Assembly (NCBI RefSeq): GCF_000321415.2 | Contig: NC_019902.2 | Span: 682,001 to 746,000 of the forward strand | DNA length: 64,000 nucleotides | Origin: Thioalkalivibrio nitratireducens DSM 14787 | GTDB lineage: Bacteria; Pseudomonadota; Gammaproteobacteria; Ectothiorhodospirales; Ectothiorhodospiraceae | Direction: 5' to 3' | In this document: piece by piece, positions 11,098 to 35,584 of the stretch | Layout of the letters: every line of letters starts with the position of its first letter | How positions within the stretch are numbered: the stretch's first letter is position 1 | Position numbers and translations under genes: made by a program | The notes under the pieces: model-generated | Databases searched by the model: none | Seen by the model: the letters and a program-made list of their open reading frames with translations, nothing else | Told to the model about the DNA's origin: nothing

Positions 11098-11224
11098 TGA
11101 AATTCGATGTCGACAAGGACGATCAGCAGAGCCGGTCCTGCGGATGCCGTTGACGGTCCCCAAGGGGCGGAGGCCATTTTGGGCGATGACAGAGCCTCGC
11201 GATGACGGTAGGGGCTTGATGACC

Positions 11225-11605
11225 GTCACTGCGAGCCCCTGTCATTGCGAGGCCGAAGGCCGCGGCAAACTGGCGTGGCAGTCCACACGCCGGCTGGATC
11301 GCCACGGGCCTTCGGCCCTCGCGATGACGGTGGGGGTTGGTGCCGTCACTGCGAGCCCCGCAGGGGCGCGGCAGTCCACGCGCCGGTTGGATCGCCACGG
11401 GTCTTTGGCCCTCGCGATGACGGTGGGGGGTAGGGCCCGTCACTGCGAGCCCCTGTCATTGCGAGGCCGAAGGCTGCGGCAAACTGGCGTGGCAGTCCAT
11501 GCGCCGGCTGGATCGCCACGGGCCTTCGGCCCTCGCGATGACGGGTGGGGGTTGGGGGCCGTCACTGCATGCCCCGCAGGGGCGCGGCAGTCCAATTGCA
11601 GCAAT
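11225..11605. repeat. R1 palindromic repeat array before GIY-YIG copy 1
   Basis: Three to four R1 units stand head to tail, each a head (CACTGCGAGCCCC with a GGCAGTCC end) plus a tail (GGATCGCCACGGGCCTTCGG, CCTCGCGATGACGG). Two heads carry an inserted CTGTCATTGCGAGGCCGAAGG variant. The last head ends GGCAGTCCAATTGCAGCAAT and leads directly into the nuclease gene. Confidence 0.88.
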
Positions 11606-11623
11606 GGGCCAAGGAGGGCCGGT

Positions 11624-11911
11624 ATGAAGCAGCCATGCGTGTACATGATGACGAACCGCCGAAACGGCACGCTGTACGTTGGGGTTACCAGCAACCTGGT
11701 ACAGCGGGTCTGGCAGCACAAGTCCGGGGTCGTTGAAGGTTTCACGAAACAATATTCTCTGCACCGGCTGGCTTGGTTCGAGGTACACGAGACGATGGAA
11801 TCCGCCATCTCCCGCGAGAAGCAACTCAAGGCCGGGAACCGGAAACGGAAACTGCGGCTCATCGAGGCGCTGAATCCGGACTGGCGAGACCTGTACGCCG
11901 ACATCCTTTGA
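11624..11911 (+). CDS. GIY-YIG nuclease, copy 1, inside R1 array
   Basis: The 95-residue single-domain GIY-YIG protein has VYMMTNRRNGTLYVGVTSNL (here CVYMM...TLYVG stands for the GIY...YIG pair), the catalytic arginine region LVQRVWQHK, and glutamate in AISREKQLKAG. AAGGAGGGCC precedes ATG 11,624. The protein sequence is identical to that of the copy at 33,610-33,897. R1 repeat heads abut it on both sides. Its function is unknown; it resembles UPF0213/YhbQ-like proteins. Longer readings upstream only translate repeats. Confidence 0.88.
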   Translation: MKQPCVYMMTNRRNGTLYVGVTSNLVQRVWQHKSGVVEGFTKQYSLHRLAWFEVHETMESAISREKQLKAGNRKRKLRLIEALNPDWRDLYADIL

Positions 11912-11922
11912 ATGGTGGTGTC

Positions 11923-12140
11923 AGCCCCGCAGGGGCGCGGCAGTCCACGCGCCGGCTGGATCGCCACGGGCCTTCGGCCCTCGCGATGACGGCTGGGGAC
12001 TGGGGGCCGTCACTGCGAGCCCCGCAGGGGCGCGGCAGTCCGCGCGCCGGCTGGATCGCCACGGGCCTTCGGCCCTCGCGATGACGGTGGGGGGTAGGGC
12101 CCGTCACTGCGAGCCCTGCAGGGGCGCGGCAGTCCATGCG
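11923..12140. repeat. R1 palindromic repeat array after GIY-YIG copy 1
   Basis: The stretch contains a partial head beginning TCAGCCCCGCAGGGGCGCGG, a tail, a full head-tail pair, and a final head ending at about 12,136. Units are nearly identical to each other. Confidence 0.88.
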
Positions 12141-12207
12141 GCTGCTGGGCGTCTGCTTTGCGGGCATTCGCGAGTTCGCTTGCTCGCGCACTTCGGCAGG
12201 CCTTCCG

Positions 12208-12642
12208 TCAAGTGCGGATGACGTGCAGGTGTCGCTGCTCGGCACCCTTCACCGCGTCGTATCGGATCCGCTGGTCGAACGTAACGAGGCGCCCGTTGTT
12301 GCGCGCTGCGATGGCCAGCAGGTACGCGTCGGTGATCTGTCGGTGGCCGAGGAGTTGTGGCCAGTTCAGAAGATCGCTTGCCGTGAGGCTGATGTCGTCT
12401 GGCCAGAATCGGTGATCTGAGTTTTGCTGGGCTTCGCGAACCCGTAGGGCCACCTGCTGTAGGGGCTGGGTGTTGGGGTACGTCGGTTGCGACATGATCC
12501 GCACCACGCCGTTTTCCGTGATCGGGCAGGATGCCCAGCCGTGTTGTATTTCCTGTGCCAGCCAGTTTGTGGCGGATCGATGCAGGGTGTGGGCGGCGTC
12601 GAGGAGCGCGATGACGACGTTGATATCCAGAAGCGCGCGCAT
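12208..12642 (-). CDS. VapC-family PIN toxin
   Basis: The 144-residue protein starts MRALLDINVVIALLDAAHTLH (D6 and the following asparagine are PIN ligands) and has RQITDAYLLAIAARNNGRLVTF near the end, with the conserved TDAYL. The fold and length are those of the TIGR00028-like VapC group. Its ATG overlaps the antitoxin stop (TGATG). Confidence 0.88.
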   Translation of the reverse strand: MRALLDINVVIALLDAAHTLHRSATNWLAQEIQHGWASCPITENGVVRIMSQPTYPNTQPLQQVALRVREAQQNSDHRFWPDDISLTASDLLNWPQLLGHRQITDAYLLAIAARNNGRLVTFDQRIRYDAVKGAEQRHLHVIRT

Positions 12643-12890
12643 CAGACCCCTTCTTCGTCCCGTAACTGCTCGACCCTCTCGTTGGTGACGATGCGGGCCG
12701 ATGGAGAGGCGAAGGGACGGAAGCCGCCGACGCCTCGGGTGGAAGGCTCGCCCTGCGGTGTGGCCGGTTGCGTCAGTGCGGCACGTAGCAGGCGCGAAAC
12801 CACTCGGCCCGCCGAGGTGCGCTCTCGTTGCGCGATTTCCTTGGCGGCCTCGAGGACGTCATCTTCGATGTCGATCGTCGTTCTCATCAC
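12642..12890 (-). CDS. VapB-type ribbon-helix-helix antitoxin
   Basis: The 82-residue protein reads MRTTIDIEDDVLEAAKEIAQ then TSAGRVVSRLLRAAL, a ribbon-helix-helix DNA-binding domain. A flexible tail ending LRDEEGV follows. ATG 12,887 is an alternative start three bases in. First gene of a vapBC operon; predicted to repress the operon with its partner. Confidence 0.87.
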   Translation of the reverse strand: MMRTTIDIEDDVLEAAKEIAQRERTSAGRVVSRLLRAALTQPATPQGEPSTRGVGGFRPFASPSARIVTNERVEQLRDEEGV

Positions 12891-13064
12891 TTCACTCGCG
12901 ATGGCGTGATGCGTTGATGTTGCGTCATCTTAACATCGGTGTCCTTTGCCAACCAGCCTTGAGGTTCATGATCCGACGCGCTAGGCCCCGGTGTTCCGGG
13001 AGCTGCGCTCGCATCGCGGGCGTTCGCGGGCGGGGATCGCTCCTACGGGGGCGCAAGCCGACGT
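12891..13064. other. Intergenic region with small REP-like hairpin
   Basis: No gene is recognised. TCGCGGGCGTTCGCGGGCGGGGATCGCTCC (about 13,013-13,045, quoted in part) belongs to the class of short GC-rich palindromes also seen at about 510 and 24,030. The vapBC promoter must lie at the left edge. Confidence 0.4.
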
Positions 13065-13600
13065 GGCAGTCCCTGCGCCGCTGGATCGCCACGGGCCTTC
13101 GGCCCTCGCGATGACGGTGGGGGTAGGGCCCGTCCACTGCGAGCCCCGAACCGCCTCGGTCACTGCGAGCCCCGGAGGGGCGTGGCAGTCCATGCGCCGC
13201 TGGATCGCCACGGGCCTTCGGCCCTCGCGATGACGGTGGGGGTAGGGCCCGTCCACTGCGAGCCCCGAACCGCCTCGGTCACTGCGAGCCCCGGAGGGGC
13301 GTGGCAGTCCATGCGCCGCTGGATCGCCACGGGCCTTCGGCCCTCGCGATGACGGTGGGGGTAGGGCCCGTCCACTGCGAGCCCCGAACCGCCTCCGTCA
13401 CTGCGAGCCTCGGAGGGGCGTGGCAGTCCATGCGCCGCTGGATCGCCACGGGCCTTCGGCCCTCGCGATGACGGTGGGGGTAGGGCCCGTCCACTGCGAG
13501 CCCCGAACCGCCTCCGTCACTGCGAGCCCGGAGGGGCGTGGCAGTCCATGCGCCGCTGGATCGCCACGGGCCTTCGGCCCTCGCGATGACGGTGTGCCAG
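13065..13600. repeat. R1 array with exact 119-bp tandem period
   Basis: The word GAGCCCCGAACCGCCTC recurs at 13,141, 13,260, 13,379 and 13,498, an exact 119-bp period. Each unit contains one R1 head and one tail plus a GGGTAGGGCCCGTCC linker. Units differ at very few positions, so the array expanded recently. Confidence 0.92.
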
Positions 13601-15163: not shown

Positions 15164-15634
15164 CGTGAAATGACAGCCACCGAAGGACACGGAAATCACG
15201 GAATATGAAACAAATCAAACCCTTTTTTCGTGTTTGTCCGTGCTTTCCGTGGCTCGCCTTTTCATGTTGCAGGGTGGCCGCTGGCCATGAAAGCTAGGGA
15301 AGCGATGAAGAATCCGTCATCGCGAGGAGCGAAGCGACGCGGCGATCCATAAGGTGCTGATCTGGCGAGCTTTGCCTGGATTATTCGCTGCGCTCACCCT
15401 GCACAGTCTTCCGCTGTTCAATGCGCCACGCGCGTTAACGTGAAAGTCACGGCCTGTCTCGTGTCCCGGGCGACCCGTAGGGCGGAAAAGCGCAGCGTCA
15501 TCCGCCACACAGCGTTCGCGCCTCCCCGGCGCCTGCGGCAATCCGGGCGCCCGCTGGCGGATGACGGCCTTCGGCCTTTTCCGCCCTACGCCTCTTTCAT
15601 CATCGGGGGTGGCCACACGGGTTATGGCAGTTAG
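15164..15634. repeat. Repeat modules C and B, with an R1-like piece between
   Basis: Module C (15,164-15,297) begins CGTGAAATGACAGCCACCG and carries the inverted pair around CACGGAAATCACGGAATATG. At about 15,320-15,355 is an R1-like GTCATCGCGAGGAGCGAAGC. Module B (15,439-15,634) begins CGTGAAAGTCACGGCCTGTC, contains GCGTCATCCGCC inverted against GGCGGATGACGG, and ends GGCAGTTAG. The rest of 15,096-15,786 shows no gene. Confidence 0.85.
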
Positions 15635-18616: not shown

Positions 18617-19470
18617 CGTGCGCGGTCGGCGCCATCAAGAATTATCGCGACCTCAGCCCGACGCGACAGCACGCCCATTATCTTTCATCATCGGGGGTGC
18701 CGCGCGCCCGGCGGCATGACAGTTAGCGTGAAATGACAGCCACGGATTGACACGGATGAACACGGATGTTTGTTGATTGAAGCCCTATCCGTGTGTATCC
18801 GTGGCAGGGAGACTTTCATGGGCGGGGGTGGCAGAGCGGCATGACAGTTAGCGTGAAAGTCACGGCCTGTCTCGTGTCCCGGGCGAGCCGTAGGGCGGAA
18901 GAGCGCAGCGTCATCCGCCGCTCGGCGTTCGCGCCTCCCCGGCGCCTGCGGCAACTCCGGCGCCGGATGGCGGATGACGGCCTTCGGCCTCTTCCGCCCT
19001 ACGCGTCTTTCATTATCGGGGGGTGGCCGCTGGCCATGGAAGTTAGCGTGAAAATACGCCGCCCTAGAATCGTATGTCTCTGATTTATAATCGTAGTTTC
19101 ATCCTTCGGGGTGCCTCGCGGCCGAGGGCATGACAGTTAGCGTGAAAGTCACGGCCTGTCTCGTGTCCCGGGCGACCCGTAGGGCGGAAGAGCGCAGCGT
19201 CATCCGCCGCTCGGCGTTCGCGCCTCCCCGGCGCCCGCGGCAACCCCGGCGCCGGATGGCGGATGACGGCCTTCGGCCTTTTCCGCCCTACGCCTCTTTC
19301 ATCACCGGGGGTGGCCACATAGGCCATGGAAGTTAACGTGAAATGACAGCCACGGAAGGACACGGAAATCACGGAAATCACGGAATATGAAACAAATCAA
19401 GCCTTTTTTCTGTGTCTGTCCGTGCCTTCCGTGGCTCGCGTTTTCGTTTCGCAGAGGCAGCCCGCGCCAT
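18617..19470. repeat. Chain of dispersed repeat modules joined at GTTAG/CGTGAAA
   Basis: Five junctions of the form GTTAG or GTTAA then CGTG occur at 18,617, 18,727, 18,852, 19,047, 19,141 and 19,337. The intervening modules are 110, 125 (C-like), 195 (B), 94 (A) and 196 bp (B), followed by a C module reaching the MITE. Most modules end CATG(A/G)(A/C)AGTTA. The same modules recur at 15,164, 15,439 and 42,579. Confidence 0.85.
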
Positions 19471-19477
19471 GAGGGCT

Positions 19478-19757
19478 CCTGATTATCACGAAACCTCCGC
19501 AGCGAGTGCGACGCCGTGCGGCATCGGTCGTCATTGCGAGCGTAGCGCGGCACTAATGCGCGCAGCGCATTGAACAGCCGAAGGCTGGCCCGAAGGGCGA
19601 GCGCAGCGAGTAATCCAGGCGGCGCGGGGAGGACTAATGCCGTTTGGATCGCCACGTCCCGCCACGCTGCGCTCGCGGCTAAAGGCTTCGCGCCTCGCGA
19701 TGACGGTGGTTTCGATGACGGCCCGTTCCAATTTGCGGAGCTTCCCTGATAATCAGG
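19478..19757. mobile_element. 280-bp MITE-like element, copy 1
   Basis: It begins CCTGATTATCACGAAACCTCC and ends with the inverted GGAGCTTCCCTGATAATCAGG (near-perfect 21-bp ends). It is flanked by an exact 8-bp duplication TGAGGGCT at 19,470-19,477 and 19,758-19,765. The interior carries REP-like ends GTCATTGCGAGCG and CTCGCGATGACGG. It has no coding capacity. A second copy with different flanks lies at 35,039. Confidence 0.9.
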
Positions 19758-19816
19758 TGAGGGCTTGAAGCAGTTCCGTGGCAGTATGTGGGGCATTCGT
19801 TCAAGGAGCAGATCCG

Positions 19817-22483: not shown

Positions 22484-22875
22484 ACTGCGAGGAGCGTAGC
22501 GACGTGGCAGTCCATGCGCCGCTGGATCGCCGCGGGGCTTCGCCCCTCGCGATGACAGCCCTCGCGATGACGGTGGGGGGTGAAAGGGTCCGTCACTGCG
22601 AGCCCCGGAGGGGCGCGGCAGTCCATGCGCCGGTTGGATCGCCACGGGCCTTCGGCCCTCGCGATGACGGTGGGGGTGAAAGGGTCCGTCACTGCGAGCC
22701 CCTGTCATTGCGAGGCCGAAGGCCGCGGCAAACTGGCGCGGCAGCCCACGCGCCGCCTCGCGATGACGGGTGGGGGTGAAAGGGTCCGTCACTGCGAGCC
22801 CCTGTCATTGCGAGGCCGAAGGCCGCGGCAAACTGGCGCGGCAGTCCACACGCCGCCTCGCGATGACGGAGGTGG
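22484..22875. repeat. R1 palindromic repeat array
   Basis: There are four to five R1 heads and tails, two of them with the CTGTCATTGCGAGGCCGAAGG insertion followed by CGCGGCAAACTGGCGCGGCAG. Linkers read GGGGGTGAAAGGGTCC. No gene lies in 22,436-22,978. Confidence 0.87.
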
Positions 22876-25861: not shown

Positions 25862-27297
25862 GCGTCGTCCTCCTCGGGGATCGGCAGATAGGCTGGCGGC
25901 AGACCGGTGGCGGCGTAGTCGGCGAGCAGCTGGCGTAACAATGGCGCCATGCCCGAGGGCGGCAGCGGATCCAGCGGGGGCGTGGCAGGGGGTCGGGTGC
26001 GGCGTTGGCCGTGGGCGTGGGCGGACTTGTCGAGCGGCAGCACCGGGCACAGGAGGGTGCCGGTGTGCGGATCGACCAGATCGACGCGACTGCGATCCCA
26101 GCGCGCGTAACGCAGGTGCACCCGGTCGAGGTGCTGGTAGCGGGCGGGGATTTCGAAGCGCTGCCCGTCCAGCGAGACGGTGCCGTCGGAGCGCCGCTGG
26201 CGGCGGGTGACCTCGATGCGGAAGGCGTCGGCCAGGGCCGCGACCGGCGGGCAGTCCCGGCGTACGTTGGGTCCGGCCAGATAGCGTTGCAGCGGGGTGG
26301 TGCCGAGTTCACTGTGGTGAGTGCGGTGGTACTCCTGCTCGGCCCAGGCCTGCGTGGCCTGGTTCAGCACCTCCAGGGTGAGTGGCGTGTGCCCTTCCAG
26401 CATCGGCAGCAGACGGCCTTCGATACGTCCCCAGAGGGACTCCTGCTTACCGTTTTGATGCGGAGAATACGGTAGCGTGGTCTGGTGCAGCACGCCCAGG
26501 CGTTGCAGTCCGGCGACGGTTTCCTCGGCCAGCATCGCAGCGCCATTGTCGGTCATCAAGGCCCGCGGCAGGCCGCGCTTCATGAACGCCTGCGACAGGC
26601 CGTGCACCAGACCCTGGGCGCTCTCGTCCAGGTACCACTGGAGATGGCAGATCAGGCGCGAGCGATCGTCCAGGATGCCGAGCAGATACGGCTTGGCCCA
26701 GGTTCCGTCCCGGGTCAGCACCTTGCGCGAGCCGTGATGGAAGTCCAGATGCCACAGGGCCGCGACATGCTCCAGCTCGTAGCTGCGTACCTCGAGCCGT
26801 TCGAACCGGTCACGGGCCCGCTCGGCCCCTTCAGTATCCCGGCGCGGACGCGCCTGACGGTGCATCCCGTGCGCCTTCAGGTACCGCCGCACCGTGGCGT
26901 ACGAGGGCATCCCCTCCGTGCAGCCGGCGAAGGCCGCACACAGGTTGTCGAAGTGCAACTGCGCGGTCCAGCCGGGATGCTCCCGGTACTGCTGCACCAG
27001 GGTCTCGATCACTACCGGCGTCAGGGCCATGAAGTGGCCCTTGGGCCGGCGCCGGTTGCGCAAGGCGGCCACCGGATCGGTGGCCGCGCGGGCCGCGTAG
27101 TACCAGCGCTCTAGCGTCGACACGCCGAAGCGCACAGGGCCTCCGGTGACCGGATGCCGCCAGTCGCGTTCGGCCAGTGCTGCCAGCGCCGCTTGCAACG
27201 CACCCGGCTGGGGTGGCGCCGCGAACAAAGGACCAATGATCGAGAAGCGCAGCCGCGCCCAGCGATCGCGGTGGCGTGGATCGTTGCCTGTGGTCAA
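25858..27297 (-). CDS. DDE (rve) transposase of the multi-gene transposon
   Basis: The 479-residue protein has an N-terminal helix-turn-helix (FGVSTLERWYYAARA) and an integrase core with D in LWHLDFHHGSRKVL, D in PRALMTDNGAAMLAE, and E in HQNGKQESLWGRIEG. The C-terminal Mu-type beta barrel includes GTVSLDGQRFEIPARYQHLD. The start is TTG 27,297 behind GGGAGAAGG. It forms a unit with the downstream AAA ATPase. The catalytic triad is intact. Confidence 0.87.
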   Translation of the reverse strand: MTTGNDPRHRDRWARLRFSIIGPLFAAPPQPGALQAALAALAERDWRHPVTGGPVRFGVSTLERWYYAARAATDPVAALRNRRRPKGHFMALTPVVIETLVQQYREHPGWTAQLHFDNLCAAFAGCTEGMPSYATVRRYLKAHGMHRQARPRRDTEGAERARDRFERLEVRSYELEHVAALWHLDFHHGSRKVLTRDGTWAKPYLLGILDDRSRLICHLQWYLDESAQGLVHGLSQAFMKRGLPRALMTDNGAAMLAEETVAGLQRLGVLHQTTLPYSPHQNGKQESLWGRIEGRLLPMLEGHTPLTLEVLNQATQAWAEQEYHRTHHSELGTTPLQRYLAGPNVRRDCPPVAALADAFRIEVTRRQRRSDGTVSLDGQRFEIPARYQHLDRVHLRYARWDRSRVDLVDPHTGTLLCPVLPLDKSAHAHGQRRTRPPATPPLDPLPPSGMAPLLRQLLADYAATGLPPAYLPIPEEDDA

Positions 27298-27394
27298 AAG
27301 CCTTCTCCCAGTGTCGGCGGTACCGGCGGTACCACCCTCCTGAGGAGGCTATTTGTTACGCTCGGCTCTGCCTATTGACATCCTCTGCGGAAAC

Positions 27395-27955
27395 TCAGCG
27401 CCCCTCGGGAGCCGTGACCGTGAGCGGCCAGAGCCACGTCAGTAACGCAAGCAACGGTGCCTGCCCCTGGCCCGGGATGCGCTCCAGAAGACCGGCCGGC
27501 AACCGTACCACCGCCACCGGCGGCAGGAACCGCGCACCCAGCACCTGCCACACCGCACTCTGCGCAAAGCCTTCGCGCCACCACCGGCGCCACCGCGCCA
27601 GAGTCCGCCAGGGAATCGACAACGCTTCACACAGTGCGGATGCCGCCGGGGTCCGCTCGCCCACCCGGGTCGACCCCAACACCACCACCCAGCCCAACCA
27701 CACCCGCCGCCCCAGGAACCGCACCGACCTCGAGGTGGTCCGGCGCCGACACTGATGACAGCAAAAACTCAGCCGGGTCGAATACTCCACGCGGAACGCA
27801 CCCGGACAGCCACGCGGCTTGCGCGGATAGTTCGCCTGATGCAAGGCACCGCCACAGTACGGACACCCCGCCGCCTGGACCTCAGCCGCCACGGTCTCAT
27901 CGATGTAGGTCAGAAAGCGGAAAAACTGGGGATCGGACAACGGAACGTGGCACAC
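27395..27955 (-). CDS. Zinc-ribbon protein of the rve/AAA transposon
   Basis: From GTG 27,955 the product is 186 residues (the frame opens up to GTG 28,045). It has two CxxC-type clusters, GCPYCGGAL and SFCCHQCRRR, with NYPRKPRGCPGAF between them. A basic middle RWRRWWREGF and a hydrophobic end follow. It is the first gene of the leftward cluster, about 100 bases before the transposase. Function unknown; a DNA-binding accessory role is a guess. Confidence 0.6.
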   Translation of the reverse strand: MCHVPLSDPQFFRFLTYIDETVAAEVQAAGCPYCGGALHQANYPRKPRGCPGAFRVEYSTRLSFCCHQCRRRTTSRSVRFLGRRVWLGWVVVLGSTRVGERTPAASALCEALSIPWRTLARWRRWWREGFAQSAVWQVLGARFLPPVAVVRLPAGLLERIPGQGQAPLLALLTWLWPLTVTAPEGR

Positions 27956-28326
27956 TGTGAGCGTCTCTTGGCGTGGTAACCAGAGACTCCCCCGAAGGGC
28001 GCGTTTGTTCAAGCTCCCCGAGGGGGATCCCCCCTCTAACCTCACGCTGCCTGATCATTCCAGCCGCAAATCCCATCAGCAGCCATGACCGTGCTCAGCC
28101 ATCCTCCTCCATTGGAGCGGTTCGTGTGGCGTCTGCTGTTGTTGCTCCATGTATTGCCGGATGGTTTCGAGGGGCGCAACGCGCTGGAGCTGCCACAAAC
28201 CGGAACAGATTTCTTTTCCGTCGGGTTACAGATCCCGGCTTCAGGATTCAGGTTTACGGAAAAGCAGTGTTTTGATGGTGTTTCTGTATACTTGGAGCCA
28301 TAGAGCAGTCTGTTGCGATCAAGACA
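27956..28326. other. Right end of the transposon and leader of the AbiE operon
   Basis: 27,956-28,085 holds the leader of the transposon operon, with a GGGGAG/CTCCCC-type hairpin around 27,990-28,035, and the right inverted end. From 28,086 no gene is convincing. TATACT at 28,287-28,292 is a possible -10 for the AbiEi-like gene; no good -35 is seen. Confidence 0.4.
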
Positions 28327-28836
28327 TTGGCCGAGTGGGCCCGGGCTGGGCGCATCGTGTTTACCGTGGGTGATCTGGCCAAGCTATTTCCTGCGGACCA
28401 GCGGCGGACCCTGCTGGCTGCGCTCGGGAGGTTGGTGGACGAGGGTGTGCTGGCGCGGGCGTGCCGCGGTGTGTATGTGTATGTACTGACGGGCGAGCCG
28501 GGTTCGGATGTGATCGAACGCATTGCTGTGGCACTGCGCCGGGGCCACTACAGTTACACCAGCCTGGAATCGGCGCTGTCGGAGTATGGGGCGATTTCAC
28601 AGATTCCGGTCGATCGCCTGACGGCCATGACGACGGGCCGATCGGGCGTGTATCGAACGCCCTGGGGCACCATTGAATTCACTCATACCAAGCGGTCGCC
28701 GGCCGATATTCTGGAAAATACGCGCCTGGTGGGCCGGCCGCTGCGCATGGCCACACCGCAAGCGGCCTGGCGTGATCTGAAGCGGGTGGGCCGCAACACC
28801 CATCTGGTCGATGCGCGGGCCCTGGCCGATGACTGA
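28327..28836 (+). CDS. AbiEi-like antitoxin (type IV TA), complete copy
   Basis: The 169-residue protein from TTG 28,327 (no ATG is available; a few codons further upstream are also open) has a winged helix in VFTVGDLAKLFPADQRRTLL and VDEGVLARACRGVYVYV. A transcription-like C-terminal domain ends VDARALADD. AbiEi proteins repress the operon and counteract the AbiEii nucleotidyltransferase, whose gene overlaps by 8 bases. The last third is duplicated at 10,048. Confidence 0.83.
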   Translation: MAEWARAGRIVFTVGDLAKLFPADQRRTLLAALGRLVDEGVLARACRGVYVYVLTGEPGSDVIERIAVALRRGHYSYTSLESALSEYGAISQIPVDRLTAMTTGRSGVYRTPWGTIEFTHTKRSPADILENTRLVGRPLRMATPQAAWRDLKRVGRNTHLVDARALADD

Positions 28837-31369: not shown

Positions 31370-31880
31370 GAGGGCCGTGTGGATCGCCAGGGGGCTTTGC
31401 CCCTCGCGATGACGGTGGGGGCTTTGTGGTCGTCACTGCGAGCCCCGGAGGGGCGTGGCAGTCCACACGGCGGTTGGATCGCCACGGGGCTTTGCCTCTC
31501 GCGATGACGGTGGGGGCTTTATGGCCGTCATGCGAGCCCCGCACCGCCTCCGTCACTGCGAGCCCCGCAGGGGCGCGGCAGTCCATACGGCGCCTGGATC
31601 GCCACGGGCCTTTGGCCCTCGCGATGACGGTGGGGGCTTTGTGACCGTCATGCGAGCCCCGCACCGCCTCCGTCACTGCGAGCCCCGCAGGGGCGCGGCA
31701 GTCCATACGGCGCCTGGATCGCCACGGGCCTTTGGCCCTCGCGATGACGGTGGGGGCTTTGTGACCGTCATGCGAGCCCCGCCTCCGTCACTGCGAGCCC
31801 CGCAGGGGCGCGGCAGTCCATACGGCGCCTGGATCGCCACGGGCCTTTGGCCCTCGCGATGACGGTGGGGGCTTTGTGGT
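31370..31880. repeat. R1 array, 120-bp period, with a GIY-YIG leader scar
   Basis: GAGCCCCGCAGGGGCGCGG recurs at 31,560 and 31,680 (120 bp) and again at 31,795. Just before the array, at 31,344-31,380, is GTGGCAGTCCAATTGAAACA followed by GGCCAAGGAGGGCCGTGT, the leader seen before both GIY-YIG genes, here joined directly to an R1 tail with no gene. Confidence 0.88.
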
Positions 31881-31946
31881 CGCACGCTCACGCGAATGGG
31901 CTCACCGGCGAGCAGGATCCTCTTGGCTTGCCTTGAAGAAGGTTTT

Positions 31947-31969
31947 TGTGTACACATGATGAGTACACA
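31947..31969. promoter_or_regulatory. Candidate operator of the Phd/VapC-like pair
   Basis: TGTGTACACA (31,947-31,956) and TGAGTACACA (31,960-31,969) form a near-perfect inverted repeat with a 3-base spacer, 19 bases before the antitoxin ATG. Phd-type antitoxins bind such palindromes. Inferred. Confidence 0.55.
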
Positions 31970-31987
31970 TTGGGTCCTGGGGGCAAC

Positions 31988-32224
31988 ATGAAAGAAGTCA
32001 GCGTCCGCGAGGCGCGCGAACAGCTTTCCAGCATCCTGAAAGCCGTGGAGCGGGGCGAGGAGGTCGGCATCCTGCGTCGGGGGCGGCCCGTCGCGCGCGT
32101 GGTGCGGCCCGCGGGGGATCCCCCGGCATTTCGTTCCCGTGCGGACTTGCGGCAGAGCCTGCCGGCCATGCGGGAGGCCGCCGTCGATACGGTCCGCGCA
32201 CTGCGGGATAGCGAACGCTACTGA
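31988..32224 (+). CDS. Phd/YefM-type antitoxin
   Basis: The 78-residue protein begins MKEVSVREAREQLSSILKAV and reads GEEVGILRRGRPVARVV, the Phd/YefM DNA-binding fold. The C-terminal part (about 45-78) would bind the toxin. ATG 31,988 is preferred to the ATG at 31,946, which lies in the operator palindrome. The stop overlaps the toxin start (TGATG). Confidence 0.87.
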   Translation: MKEVSVREAREQLSSILKAVERGEEVGILRRGRPVARVVRPAGDPPAFRSRADLRQSLPAMREAAVDTVRALRDSERY

Positions 32225-32658
32225 TGTTCTACGCGGACACCAGCGCAGTCTTGCCGTTTTACCGCAGCGAACCCGCCAGCGACACCATCGAGCGGCTCTT
32301 GCTTGCGCAGCGCCAGCCGCCCGTCATTAGTGACCTGGTGCGTGTGGAGTTTGCTTCGGCACTGGCCCGCTGGGTCCGCATGGATGAATTGGGCGAGGCT
32401 CAGGCCAACCGGATCGAGTCGGCGTTTCACGAAGACGTTCGCGAGGGGCGTTATCGCCTCGTGGCGCTGGACTCAGGCGTGTTCGAGCGAGCCCTGCACT
32501 GGCTGCTCACGCGTCGGACCAGCCTGAGGACGATGGACGCCCTGCATCTGGCATGCGCCGAGGCCAGCGAAGCCCCCTTGCTGACCCTCGATCAGGCACT
32601 CCTGACGTCAGCGGAGTTTTTCGGCGTCGCTACGTTTGGGGCAACCGGAAAGATCTGA
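32224..32658 (+). CDS. VapC-like PIN toxin
   Basis: The 144-residue protein has MFYADTSAVLPFYRSEPASD (Mg2+ ligand D5), VRVEFASALARW with a conserved glutamate, and LRTMDALHLACAEA with the third acidic residue. All catalytic positions are present and the length is normal. It is co-translated with the Phd-type antitoxin. Confidence 0.88.
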   Translation: MFYADTSAVLPFYRSEPASDTIERLLLAQRQPPVISDLVRVEFASALARWVRMDELGEAQANRIESAFHEDVREGRYRLVALDSGVFERALHWLLTRRTSLRTMDALHLACAEASEAPLLTLDQALLTSAEFFGVATFGATGKI

Positions 32659-32669
32659 CCCCCGGGCGA

Positions 32670-32936
32670 TCATCGTTTCTGAACATCCTCCGCGAGCGAT
32701 GCTTTGATCAGGGACTGATAGGGCATGTCCCGCCGATTCGCCTCGATCTTGATCCTCTCGAGCAAGGCGATGGGCAGGCGCAGGGAAATGGTCTTGGTCG
32801 AGGGCTTGAGATTCGGGAGGCTGACGTTTTGTGCCGCATCCCAGTCAACGTATTCGCTGGAATCGTGGCTCTCCCAGAATGCGCGTTCGTCTGCCTCCGT
32901 TTGAAACTCAGGTCTGGCTTTCGGATGTTTGGTCAT
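32670..32936 (-). CDS. BrnA/CopG-family antitoxin
   Basis: The 88-residue protein has AFWESHDSSEYVDWDAAQNV and then KTISLRLPIALLERIKIEAN with MPYQSLIKASLAED, a C-terminal ribbon-helix-helix typical of CopG/BrnA antitoxins. It overlaps the end of a degraded BrnT-like gene by 29 bases. Probably an orphan now. Confidence 0.78.
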   Translation of the reverse strand: MTKHPKARPEFQTEADERAFWESHDSSEYVDWDAAQNVSLPNLKPSTKTISLRLPIALLERIKIEANRRDMPYQSLIKASLAEDVQKR

Positions 32937-33115
32937 GGACAGCTCTCTCTTTGCGATGCATGTCTCGGACGGAAATCACGCGGATCAGGGTGTCCGCAGC
33001 GCGCAGGGTGAAGCTGACGTGGAGCCTCCATCCGTCGTCAACTCGCGGAGAAACGCATTGGGGTGTGCCGCAAAGCGCAGGTGGCGCGCATCCGCGAGCC
33101 GGATCCTGATCGGGA
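32908..33115 (-). pseudogene. BrnT-like toxin remnant
   Basis: The C-terminal end GWRLHVSFTLRAADTLIRVI then SVRDMHRKERAVHD resembles BrnT (xxRVISxRxA-RxE). Upstream, a different frame reads RLADARHLRFAAHPNAFLRE, so a frameshift separates the halves. An R1 array replaces the start. No complete toxin is encoded. Confidence 0.5.
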
Positions 33116-33164
33116 GATTGTTGGGGTGGGGTAGGGTTAGGGGTGGTAGGGCCGCCACTGCGAG

Positions 33165-33590
33165 GAGGCCGCACTCCCTCTGTCACTGCGAGCCCCGCAA
33201 CCCCCCCTCCGTCACTGCGAGCCCCGCAGGGGCGCGGCAGTCCACGCGGCGGCTGGATCGCCACGGGCCTTTGGCCCTCGCGATGACGGTGGGGGCTTTG
33301 TGGTCGTCATGCGAGCCCCGCACCGCCTCCGTCACTGCGAGCCCCGCAGGGGCGCGGCAGTCCACGCGGCGGCTGGATCGCCACGGGCCTTTGGCCCTCG
33401 CGATGACGGTGGAGGCTTTGTGACCGTCATGCGAGCCCCGCACCGCCTCCGTCACTGCGAGCCCCGCAGGGGCGCGGCAGTCCACGCGGCGGCTGGATCG
33501 CCACGGGCCTTTGGCCCTCGCGATGACGGTGGAGGTGGGGCCGTCACTGCGAGGAGCCCGCAGGGCGACGTGGCAGTCCAATTGCAGCAA
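33165..33590. repeat. R1 array with exact 120-bp tandem period before GIY-YIG copy 2
   Basis: GAGCCCCGCAGGGGCGCGG starts at 33,219, 33,339 and 33,459, an exact 120-bp period. A final head at about 33,541, GTCACTGCGAGGAGCCCGCA, runs into GTGGCAGTCCAATTGCAGCA before the nuclease gene. Confidence 0.92.
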
Positions 33591-33609
33591 TGGGCCAAGG
33601 AGGGTCGGT

Positions 33610-33897
33610 ATGAAGCAGCCATGCGTTTACATGATGACGAACCGCCGAAACGGCACGCTGTACGTTGGGGTTACCAGCAACCTGGTACAGCGGGTCTGGC
33701 AGCACAAGTCCGGGGTCGTTGAAGGTTTCACGAAACAATATTCTCTGCACCGGCTGGCTTGGTTCGAGGTACACGAGACGATGGAATCCGCGATCTCCCG
33801 CGAGAAGCAACTCAAGGCGGGGAACCGGAAACGGAAACTGCGACTCATCGAGGCACTGAATCCGGACTGGCGAGACCTGTACGCCGACATCCTTTGA
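33610..33897 (+). CDS. GIY-YIG nuclease, copy 2, inside R1 array
   Basis: The 95-residue protein is identical to the copy at 11,624-11,911, with only a few silent changes in the DNA. The leader AAGGAGGGTCGGT and the downstream TCAGCCCCGCAGGGGCGTGG join are shared as well. R1 units surround it on both sides. The near identity of two copies embedded in repeats suggests recent movement or conversion. Function unknown. Confidence 0.88.
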   Translation: MKQPCVYMMTNRRNGTLYVGVTSNLVQRVWQHKSGVVEGFTKQYSLHRLAWFEVHETMESAISREKQLKAGNRKRKLRLIEALNPDWRDLYADIL

Positions 33898-33904
33898 ATG
33901 GTGG

Positions 33905-34215
33905 TGTCAGCCCCGCAGGGGCGTGGCAGTCCATACGGCGCCTGGATCGCCACGGGCCTTTGGCCCTCGCGATGACGGTTGGGCGTGCGTCACTGCGAGC
34001 TCCGGAGGAGCGCGGCAGTCCATGCGGCGGTTGGGTCGCCGCGGGGCTTTGCCACGGCCTTCGGCCTCGCAATGACAGGCCCTCGCGATGACGGTTGGGC
34101 GTGCGTCACTGCGGGCCCCGGAGGGGCGCGATGCGGCGGTTGGGTCGCCGCGGGGCTTTGCCACGGCCTTCGGCCTCGCAATGACAGGCCCTCGCGATGA
34201 CGGTGGGGGCCGTCA
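33905..34215. repeat. R1 array after GIY-YIG copy 2
   Basis: There are three R1 pairs. The last two carry the longer tail GGGGCTTTGCCACGGCCTTC plus GGCCTCGCAATGACAGGCC. The remaining 34,216-34,290 has no feature. Confidence 0.87.
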
Positions 34216-35010: not shown

Positions 35011-35038
35011 TGAAGTGGACCCCAGTGTCAAGACAGTA

Positions 35039-35318
35039 CCTGATTATCACGAAACCTCCTCAGCCAGTGCGATACCTCTCCGCGTCGGTCGTCATTGCGA
35101 GCGAAGCGCGGCACTAATGCGCATAGCGCATTGAACAGCCGCAGGCTGGCCCGAAGGGCGAGCGCAGCGAGTAATCCAGGCGGCGCAGGGGGGACCATCG
35201 CCCTCTGGATCGCCACGTCCCGCCACGCTGCGCTCGCGGCTAAAGGCTTCGCTCCTCGCGATGACGCTGGTTTCGAAGATGGCCCAGTCCAGCTTGCGGA
35301 GCTTCCGTGATAATCAGG
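35039..35318. mobile_element. 280-bp MITE-like element, copy 2
   Basis: It has the same ends as the element at 19,478: CCTGATTATCACGAAACCTCC and GGAGCTTCCGTGATAATCAGG (inverted, 18 of 21). The exact 8-bp flanking duplication AGACAGTA lies at 35,031-35,038 and 35,319-35,326. It has the same length as copy 1 and a few internal differences. Non-coding. Confidence 0.9.
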
Positions 35319-35584
35319 AGACAGTAAGTGGACGAGTTTAAGCAACGGCCTGGACCTCGCTCGCAGCGGAGCAGCGCTGCCCTGGTGTTACCGGTTCGCC
35401 GGGCGGCGTTGCCGCCGGGCCGTCGCTCCTGTCCGGAATCCCGTCCCGAGCATGGCTCAGCCCCTGGCCGGATTTCACTCAGAATGACGAGGAACCCGTC
35501 CTGGAGTGGACGGTTACCTTCGTGAAGATCAGGATGATGCTCATCAACAATGTCGCGCAAGGCAAGCGCAGGCAGGAGCAAGCG

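Follow-up and report, generated by a model that had tools for sequence, protein, structure and literature searches.

MITEs with IS1595-type ends carrying REP pairs in Thioalkalivibrio nitratireducens

Paired REPs and short mobile elements have been brought together in several described systems. In REPIN/RAYT systems, paired inverted REPs multiply as a non-autonomous unit (PMC3116915, PMC2817692). A 2013 survey found no association of CGTC REPs with a transposase gene, described them as lacking a dedicated transposase, left their movement by other transposases as a question, and noted that the CGTC dimers of Halothiobacillus neapolitanus lie inside 41-bp palindromes (PMC3733652). A REP within a MITE is also known: QMITE2 of Coxiella burnetii, 150–190 bp long, contains a GTAG REP, and several of its copies have direct repeats (PMC5896051). 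Members of the IS1595 family, for their part, usually produce 8-bp duplications (PMC8101967).

The MITE described here touches each of these systems and coincides with none. Like QMITE2 it holds a REP, has several copies and is flanked by direct repeats, but QMITE2 has a GTAG REP, direct repeats of 7–11 nt and a REP that is the target of IS1111, whereas here a head-to-head pair of CGTC or GTAG type, depending on the genome, lies between IS1595 ends. It shares with REPINs paired inverted REPs in a non-autonomous unit, yet a DDE-type end and an 8-bp duplication, not the REP edge, bound the mobile unit. Its core has the CGTC terminus, AT stem base, CCA tail and head-to-head dimers of the CGTC/GTAG superfamilies, though the surveyed CGTC REPs stood without a transposase association and the present ones belong to units bounded by transposon ends and duplications (PMC3733652). 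With the IS1595 family (IS1595 group; DDE_Tnp_IS1595 plus zinc ribbon) it has in common the terminal CCTGATTA, the 8-bp duplications, the A/T target edges and an end that recurs, nearly unchanged, next to a family transposase gene of its own genome; it differs in having no transposase gene, in its length (about 160–310 bp against about 1,050 bp) and in an interior of REP palindromes and not IS sequence. We found no literature linking CGTC REPs to IS1595 within a coverage that mostly leaves out subscription journals. REP-holding MITEs being already known, what is new is the assignment of the ends to IS1595, the swap of cargo within one shell and the presence of one cargo in two shells.

Copies and evidence of transposition

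The window, 64,000 nucleotides in all, comprises bases 682,001–746,000 of the single-contig 4,002,350-bp genome of Thioalkalivibrio nitratireducens (G000). By sequence inspection, two 280-bp copies of the MITE lie exactly where a sequence-only reading had placed them (Table 1), each with its own exact 8-bp direct repeat, TGAGGGCT for copy 1 and AGACAGTA for copy 2. That reading had also given the copies shared ends and their inverse; both are present, but the inverse is not exact, since the right end of copy 1, CCTGATTATCAGGGAAGCTCCG read inward, leaves three differences between that copy's two 22-bp ends. The family's end consensus is CCTGATTATCASGRAASCTCC(G/T). The left flank of copy 1 (window 18,720–19,450) has another repeat of about 200 bp, found in tens of copies, 85–97% identical, in the genome G011.

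Table 1. Positions of the MITE copies, their parts and the second-shell elements (window coordinates unless G000 is given)
Feature	Position	Strand	Remarks
MITE copy 1	19478..19757	+	280-bp class, arm type A1
Copy 1 left target duplication TGAGGGCT	19470..19477	.	single copy TGAGGGTT at the G011 empty site
Copy 1 right target duplication TGAGGGCT	19758..19765	.	
Copy 1 left terminal inverted repeat CCTGATTATCACGAAACCTCCG	19478..19499	+	IS1595-type
Copy 1 right terminal inverted repeat CCTGATTATCAGGGAAGCTCCG	19736..19757	-	
Copy 1 cargo, head-to-head CGTC-REP dimer (CGTCATTGCGAG...CTCGCGATGACG)	19529..19705	+	expanded form, extra hairpins; features per PMC3733652
MITE copy 2	35039..35318	+	280-bp class, arm type A2
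Copy 2 left target duplication AGACAGTA	35031..35038	.	
Copy 2 right target duplication AGACAGTA	35319..35326	.	
Copy 2 cargo, CGTC-REP dimer	35090..35266	+	
Second-shell elements	G000 621,400-621,520; 102,630-102,770; 3,752,250-3,752,390; window ~15,296-15,470		

The genome of T. nitratireducens gave about 42 BLAST matches to the MITE, and the end pattern, at up to three mismatches, matched 100 times, 50 per strand, against 0 matches for a reversed control pattern. Copies fall into size classes of 280, 254 and 194 bp with ends of about 22 bp. The 8-bp duplication was exact in 25 of the 41 two-ended copies and had one mismatch in 5 more; among the copies with CC...GG termini (n = 31), 22 were exact at 8 bp and none at 5–7 or 9–12 bp, and a control that paired left and right flanks from different copies yielded no exact match in 1,640 comparisons. 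Both edges of the duplication were A or T (W-N6-W) in 24 of the 25 exact cases, against 0.109 as the background in the window (binomial p ~2e-22). Roughly one two-ended copy in four lacks a duplication; several of these are clearly degenerate, lie in a tandem array or are fused to another repeat, and in several the absence is explained by one or both ends adjoining another repeat. Copies of this kind had been named beforehand as what would speak against transposition, an objection that holds only in part because they are a minority.

The site itself can be seen unoccupied in G011, a close relative whose 3,756,729-bp genome is the nearest to ours: at the site orthologous to copy 1 the flanks meet at one TGAGGGYT (GCCCGCACCATGAGGGTTTGAAGCAG) and all 280 bp are absent. 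At the copy 2 locus the match to G011 ends with the aminotransferase gene, so the insertion site itself falls beyond it. The duplications at many sites and this empty site bear out the earlier claim that the MITE transposed as a unit, and the element has the features of a MITE throughout: it is short, lacks a transposase, and has terminal inverted repeats, a target duplication and many copies. End-pattern matches in named genomes were nearly all in Thioalkalivibrio, and no match to the element turned up in viral contigs or plasmids.

Some ends stand in other settings. At least ten IS1595-type ends (L006, L009, L016, L034, L035, L073, L079, L089, L090, L092) adjoin a conserved 60–130 bp repeat, AGTCCCGTTTCTCCGCGAACGCCTGCCCCGG...CCGGGGTTGGGAGG, for which Rfam gave nothing in the loci tested; where such an end belongs to a two-ended copy, that copy lacks target duplications. 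Two units with MITE ends, L082 (own genome 315,421–315,686, with a one-mismatch duplication) and L127, have an interior resembling the terminal part of a protein-coding gene (..FACKA..KGKNP stop), possibly a captured gene end.

Relation to the IS1595 family

One subgroup of IS1595 has ends in CCTGATT, and because the 8-bp duplications and CCTGATT ends of the MITE pointed to this family, its domain was searched for in the genus. This search gave 14 matches in 7 of 30 genomes, and family transposases exceeded the cut-offs of PF12762, the zinc ribbon PF12760 and NCBIfam NF033547. Four complete copies of 1,045–1,048 bp have the ends CCTGATTA(T/G)CA and exact 8-bp duplications (AAATTCAT, TCGCCCTT, TCCCTGTT and TGAGGGGT), all of the W-N6-W form; their proteins carried NF033547 in all three scanned and both Pfam domains in both scanned. 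The MITE thus has an 8-bp target duplication and ends common to IS of this family in the same genus.

The closest transposase relative within the own genome, at 641 kb, is broken: codon 69 is an in-frame TAG. Its surviving right end, GCTGATTAGCACGAAAGCTCCG, lies where the gene ends on the 3' side and equals the MITE end pattern at 20 of 22 positions; no left end was recognisable for this IS. We considered this TAG-interrupted IS as a live source and rejected it. By eye, this locus (L089, G000 640,000–641,600) is fused at its left to a group II intron reverse-transcriptase-like fragment. Truncated IS1595 copies in two other genomes, G010 and G002, have transposases 89–90% identical to the one at 641 kb and near-identical ends (CCTGATTAGCACGGATGCTCCG), while an intact own-genome copy (L170) is more divergent and shares the MITE end only in part (CCTGATTAGCAACGAGAGTC). 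No intact IS1595 with MITE-identical ends (CCTGATTATCACGRAASCTCCG) was found in 47 genomes of the order. The full-length autonomous partner with the same ends that the sequence-only reading had looked to was therefore not recovered in intact form, its nearest representatives being the broken relative and the two truncated ones. Where that reading knew of no named element with these ends, they can now be traced to the IS1595 family, though to no intact IS with identical ends.

Three longer pairs of ends were considered and discarded: a 1.5-kb pair at 929.5–931.0 kb encloses an ordinary gene (by eye membrane transporter-like) and no transposase, and a 1.2-kb pair (L138) and a 2.7-kb pair (L162) enclose host genes, as judged by eye from their ORFs.

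REP cargo, mosaic cores and a second shell

The interior of the MITE is a head-to-head CGTC-REP pair as Di Nocera and colleagues define it, with the CGTC terminus, AT at the stem base and the CCA tail (CGTCATTGCGAGCGAAGCGCGGCAATCCA...TGGATCGCCACGTCGCTTCGCTCCTCGCGATGACG); of their 8–9 bp stem and 4–5 bp loop, the stem is imperfect in the MITE core subtype, and the 254- and 280-bp classes have a 60-bp insertion (PMC3733652). The three size classes differ by this insertion, in the left REP, and by a 26-bp insertion in the right REP. About 52 bp separate the MITE ends from the REP edges inside them, so that the REP edge is not the end of the mobile unit as it is in REPIN/RAYT systems. Other genomes supplied 39 two-ended elements, 13 of them with exact duplications; of the 39, 33 have GTAG motifs (the motif test is short, and so the few with a single motif are less certain), 2 have CGTC motifs (both in G011) and 4 have neither by the strict pattern, at least 2 of these resembling decayed GTAG pairs. 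One own-genome copy (L081) also holds a GTAG pair within MITE ends. The suggestion that this is a MITE that captured a REP pair is upheld by the CGTC-REP dimer core, by the GTAG-REP dimers within the same ends elsewhere and by the same core within other ends. Clusters of CGTC REPs of a different loop subtype and without a shell occupy window 11,190–13,600, 22,540–22,870 and 31,400–34,200.

Because the core is mosaic, we followed its history by state tables and identity correlations and not by a tree. Core states ++, +- and -- were all seen with arm type A11 and likewise with A22, and both the expanded and the basic core are found in the second shell and in each of the two arm types of the IS1595-type shell. 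Between copies, identities of the two arms were correlated (rho 0.60), whereas those of the left and right core halves were nearly unrelated (rho 0.16); as the pairs are not independent of one another, this contrast in rho is meaningful and the p-values are not. L003 and L012, for example, share 95% of the core and 78% of the arms. Exchange of cores by recombination is the simplest reading of these patterns.

The second shell belongs to a separate family of short elements whose ends read CTAG/GGAARCGCTGATTAA, with 4-bp junction repeats, CGTC-REP pairs inside and 24 end matches in the genome. Four core-only matches sit between the unrelated ends GGAARCGCTGA, several of their junctions showing CTAG, and there are further second-shell units, such as L184, L221 and L222, the last flanked by ATAA on both sides. 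These ends presumably resemble those of the IS5 group, an assignment that is only a lead given that no IS with second-shell ends was found.

Since one shell contains either CGTC or GTAG pairs and one core occurs in two shells, REP pairs look, on this sequence comparison, like interchangeable cargo of transposon-end shells. More tentatively, they might be a general exchangeable cargo of DDE shells from unrelated IS families (the IS1595-type shell with its 8-bp duplication and the 4-bp shell with CTAG junctions), a hitch-hiking that needs no dedicated enzyme and spreads CGTC REPs; we hold this wider idea possible but somewhat less probable than its contrary. CGTC REPs within IS1595 ends offer one concrete answer to the missing dedicated transposase and suggest how such palindromes spread, and with a CGTC pair here and a GTAG pair in sister species inside the same ends, the open question becomes directly testable. 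They also suggest that REP distributions in such genomes track the history of IS and not that of REP enzymes.

Means of spread

We consider it very probable that the family consists of MITEs with ends of the IS1595 family (IS1595-like group) that were moved in trans, with the REP pair as a passenger and with cores exchanged among them. A transposase supplied in trans would bind the ends of about 22 bp (CCTGATTATCACG...) and insert the unit at W-N6-W sites with an 8-bp duplication. Duplication and empty site are observed directly; from the shared ends, the duplication length and the target preference we infer that the enzyme was an IS1595 transposase. The REP pair inside would travel as a passenger, of CGTC type here and in G011 and of GTAG type in other Thioalkalivibrio, and its cores would be swapped among copies and across shells that differ in their ends, with homologous recombination or gene conversion as the most likely route, as their mosaic make-up suggests.

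Alternatively, the repeat could be mainly a REP element, its REP pairs self-mobile via RAYTs and the IS1595-like ends merely their landing places. The own genome does have RAYT-like genes, one at 27 kb above the NF047646 cut-off and another, a weaker relative, at 1,367 kb, and the shell-free CGTC-REP units, whose loop subtype differs, are clustered. RAYT elements (HUH transposases), however, are not known to duplicate 8-bp targets, which counts against them here. The duplications directly border the IS1595-like ends on the outside, G011 is missing all 280 bp at its empty site and CGTC REPs have been reported not to flank RAYT genes (PMC3733652), making this explanation improbable, although RAYTs could be behind the first entry of a REP pair into the shell. 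It is still less probable that the transposase of another family with 8-bp duplications (IS4-, IS66- or ISL3-type, for example) moves the MITEs: the lack of any intact IS with exactly the MITE ends among those found would allow it, but the shared terminal CCTGATTA, the 8-bp length, the W-N6-W preference and the near-identical end beside an IS1595 transposase gene speak for IS1595.

Least credible of all is spread by segmental duplication or gene conversion, with the copies serving as host regulatory hairpins. The unit folds strongly (RNA z -5.0, DNA z -3.8), copy 1 ends 59 bp before the start codon of a sugar-transferase gene and copy 2 begins 25 bp past the stop codon of an aminotransferase gene; yet any inverted-repeat element would be expected to fold strongly, copy 1 showed no promoter- or terminator-like site, and the 8-bp duplications, which differ from site to site, and the empty site contradict such a means of spread. 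The MITE had no Rfam match, and it may have a regulatory role after insertion.

Under movement by an IS1595 transposase in trans, the broken state of the closest transposase gene means that the family is probably at rest in the own genome, unless the intact and more divergent IS1595 copy acts on it. The RAYT gene at 27 kb lies directly beside a DDE-transposase-like ORF in the same orientation (G000 27,000–28,500).
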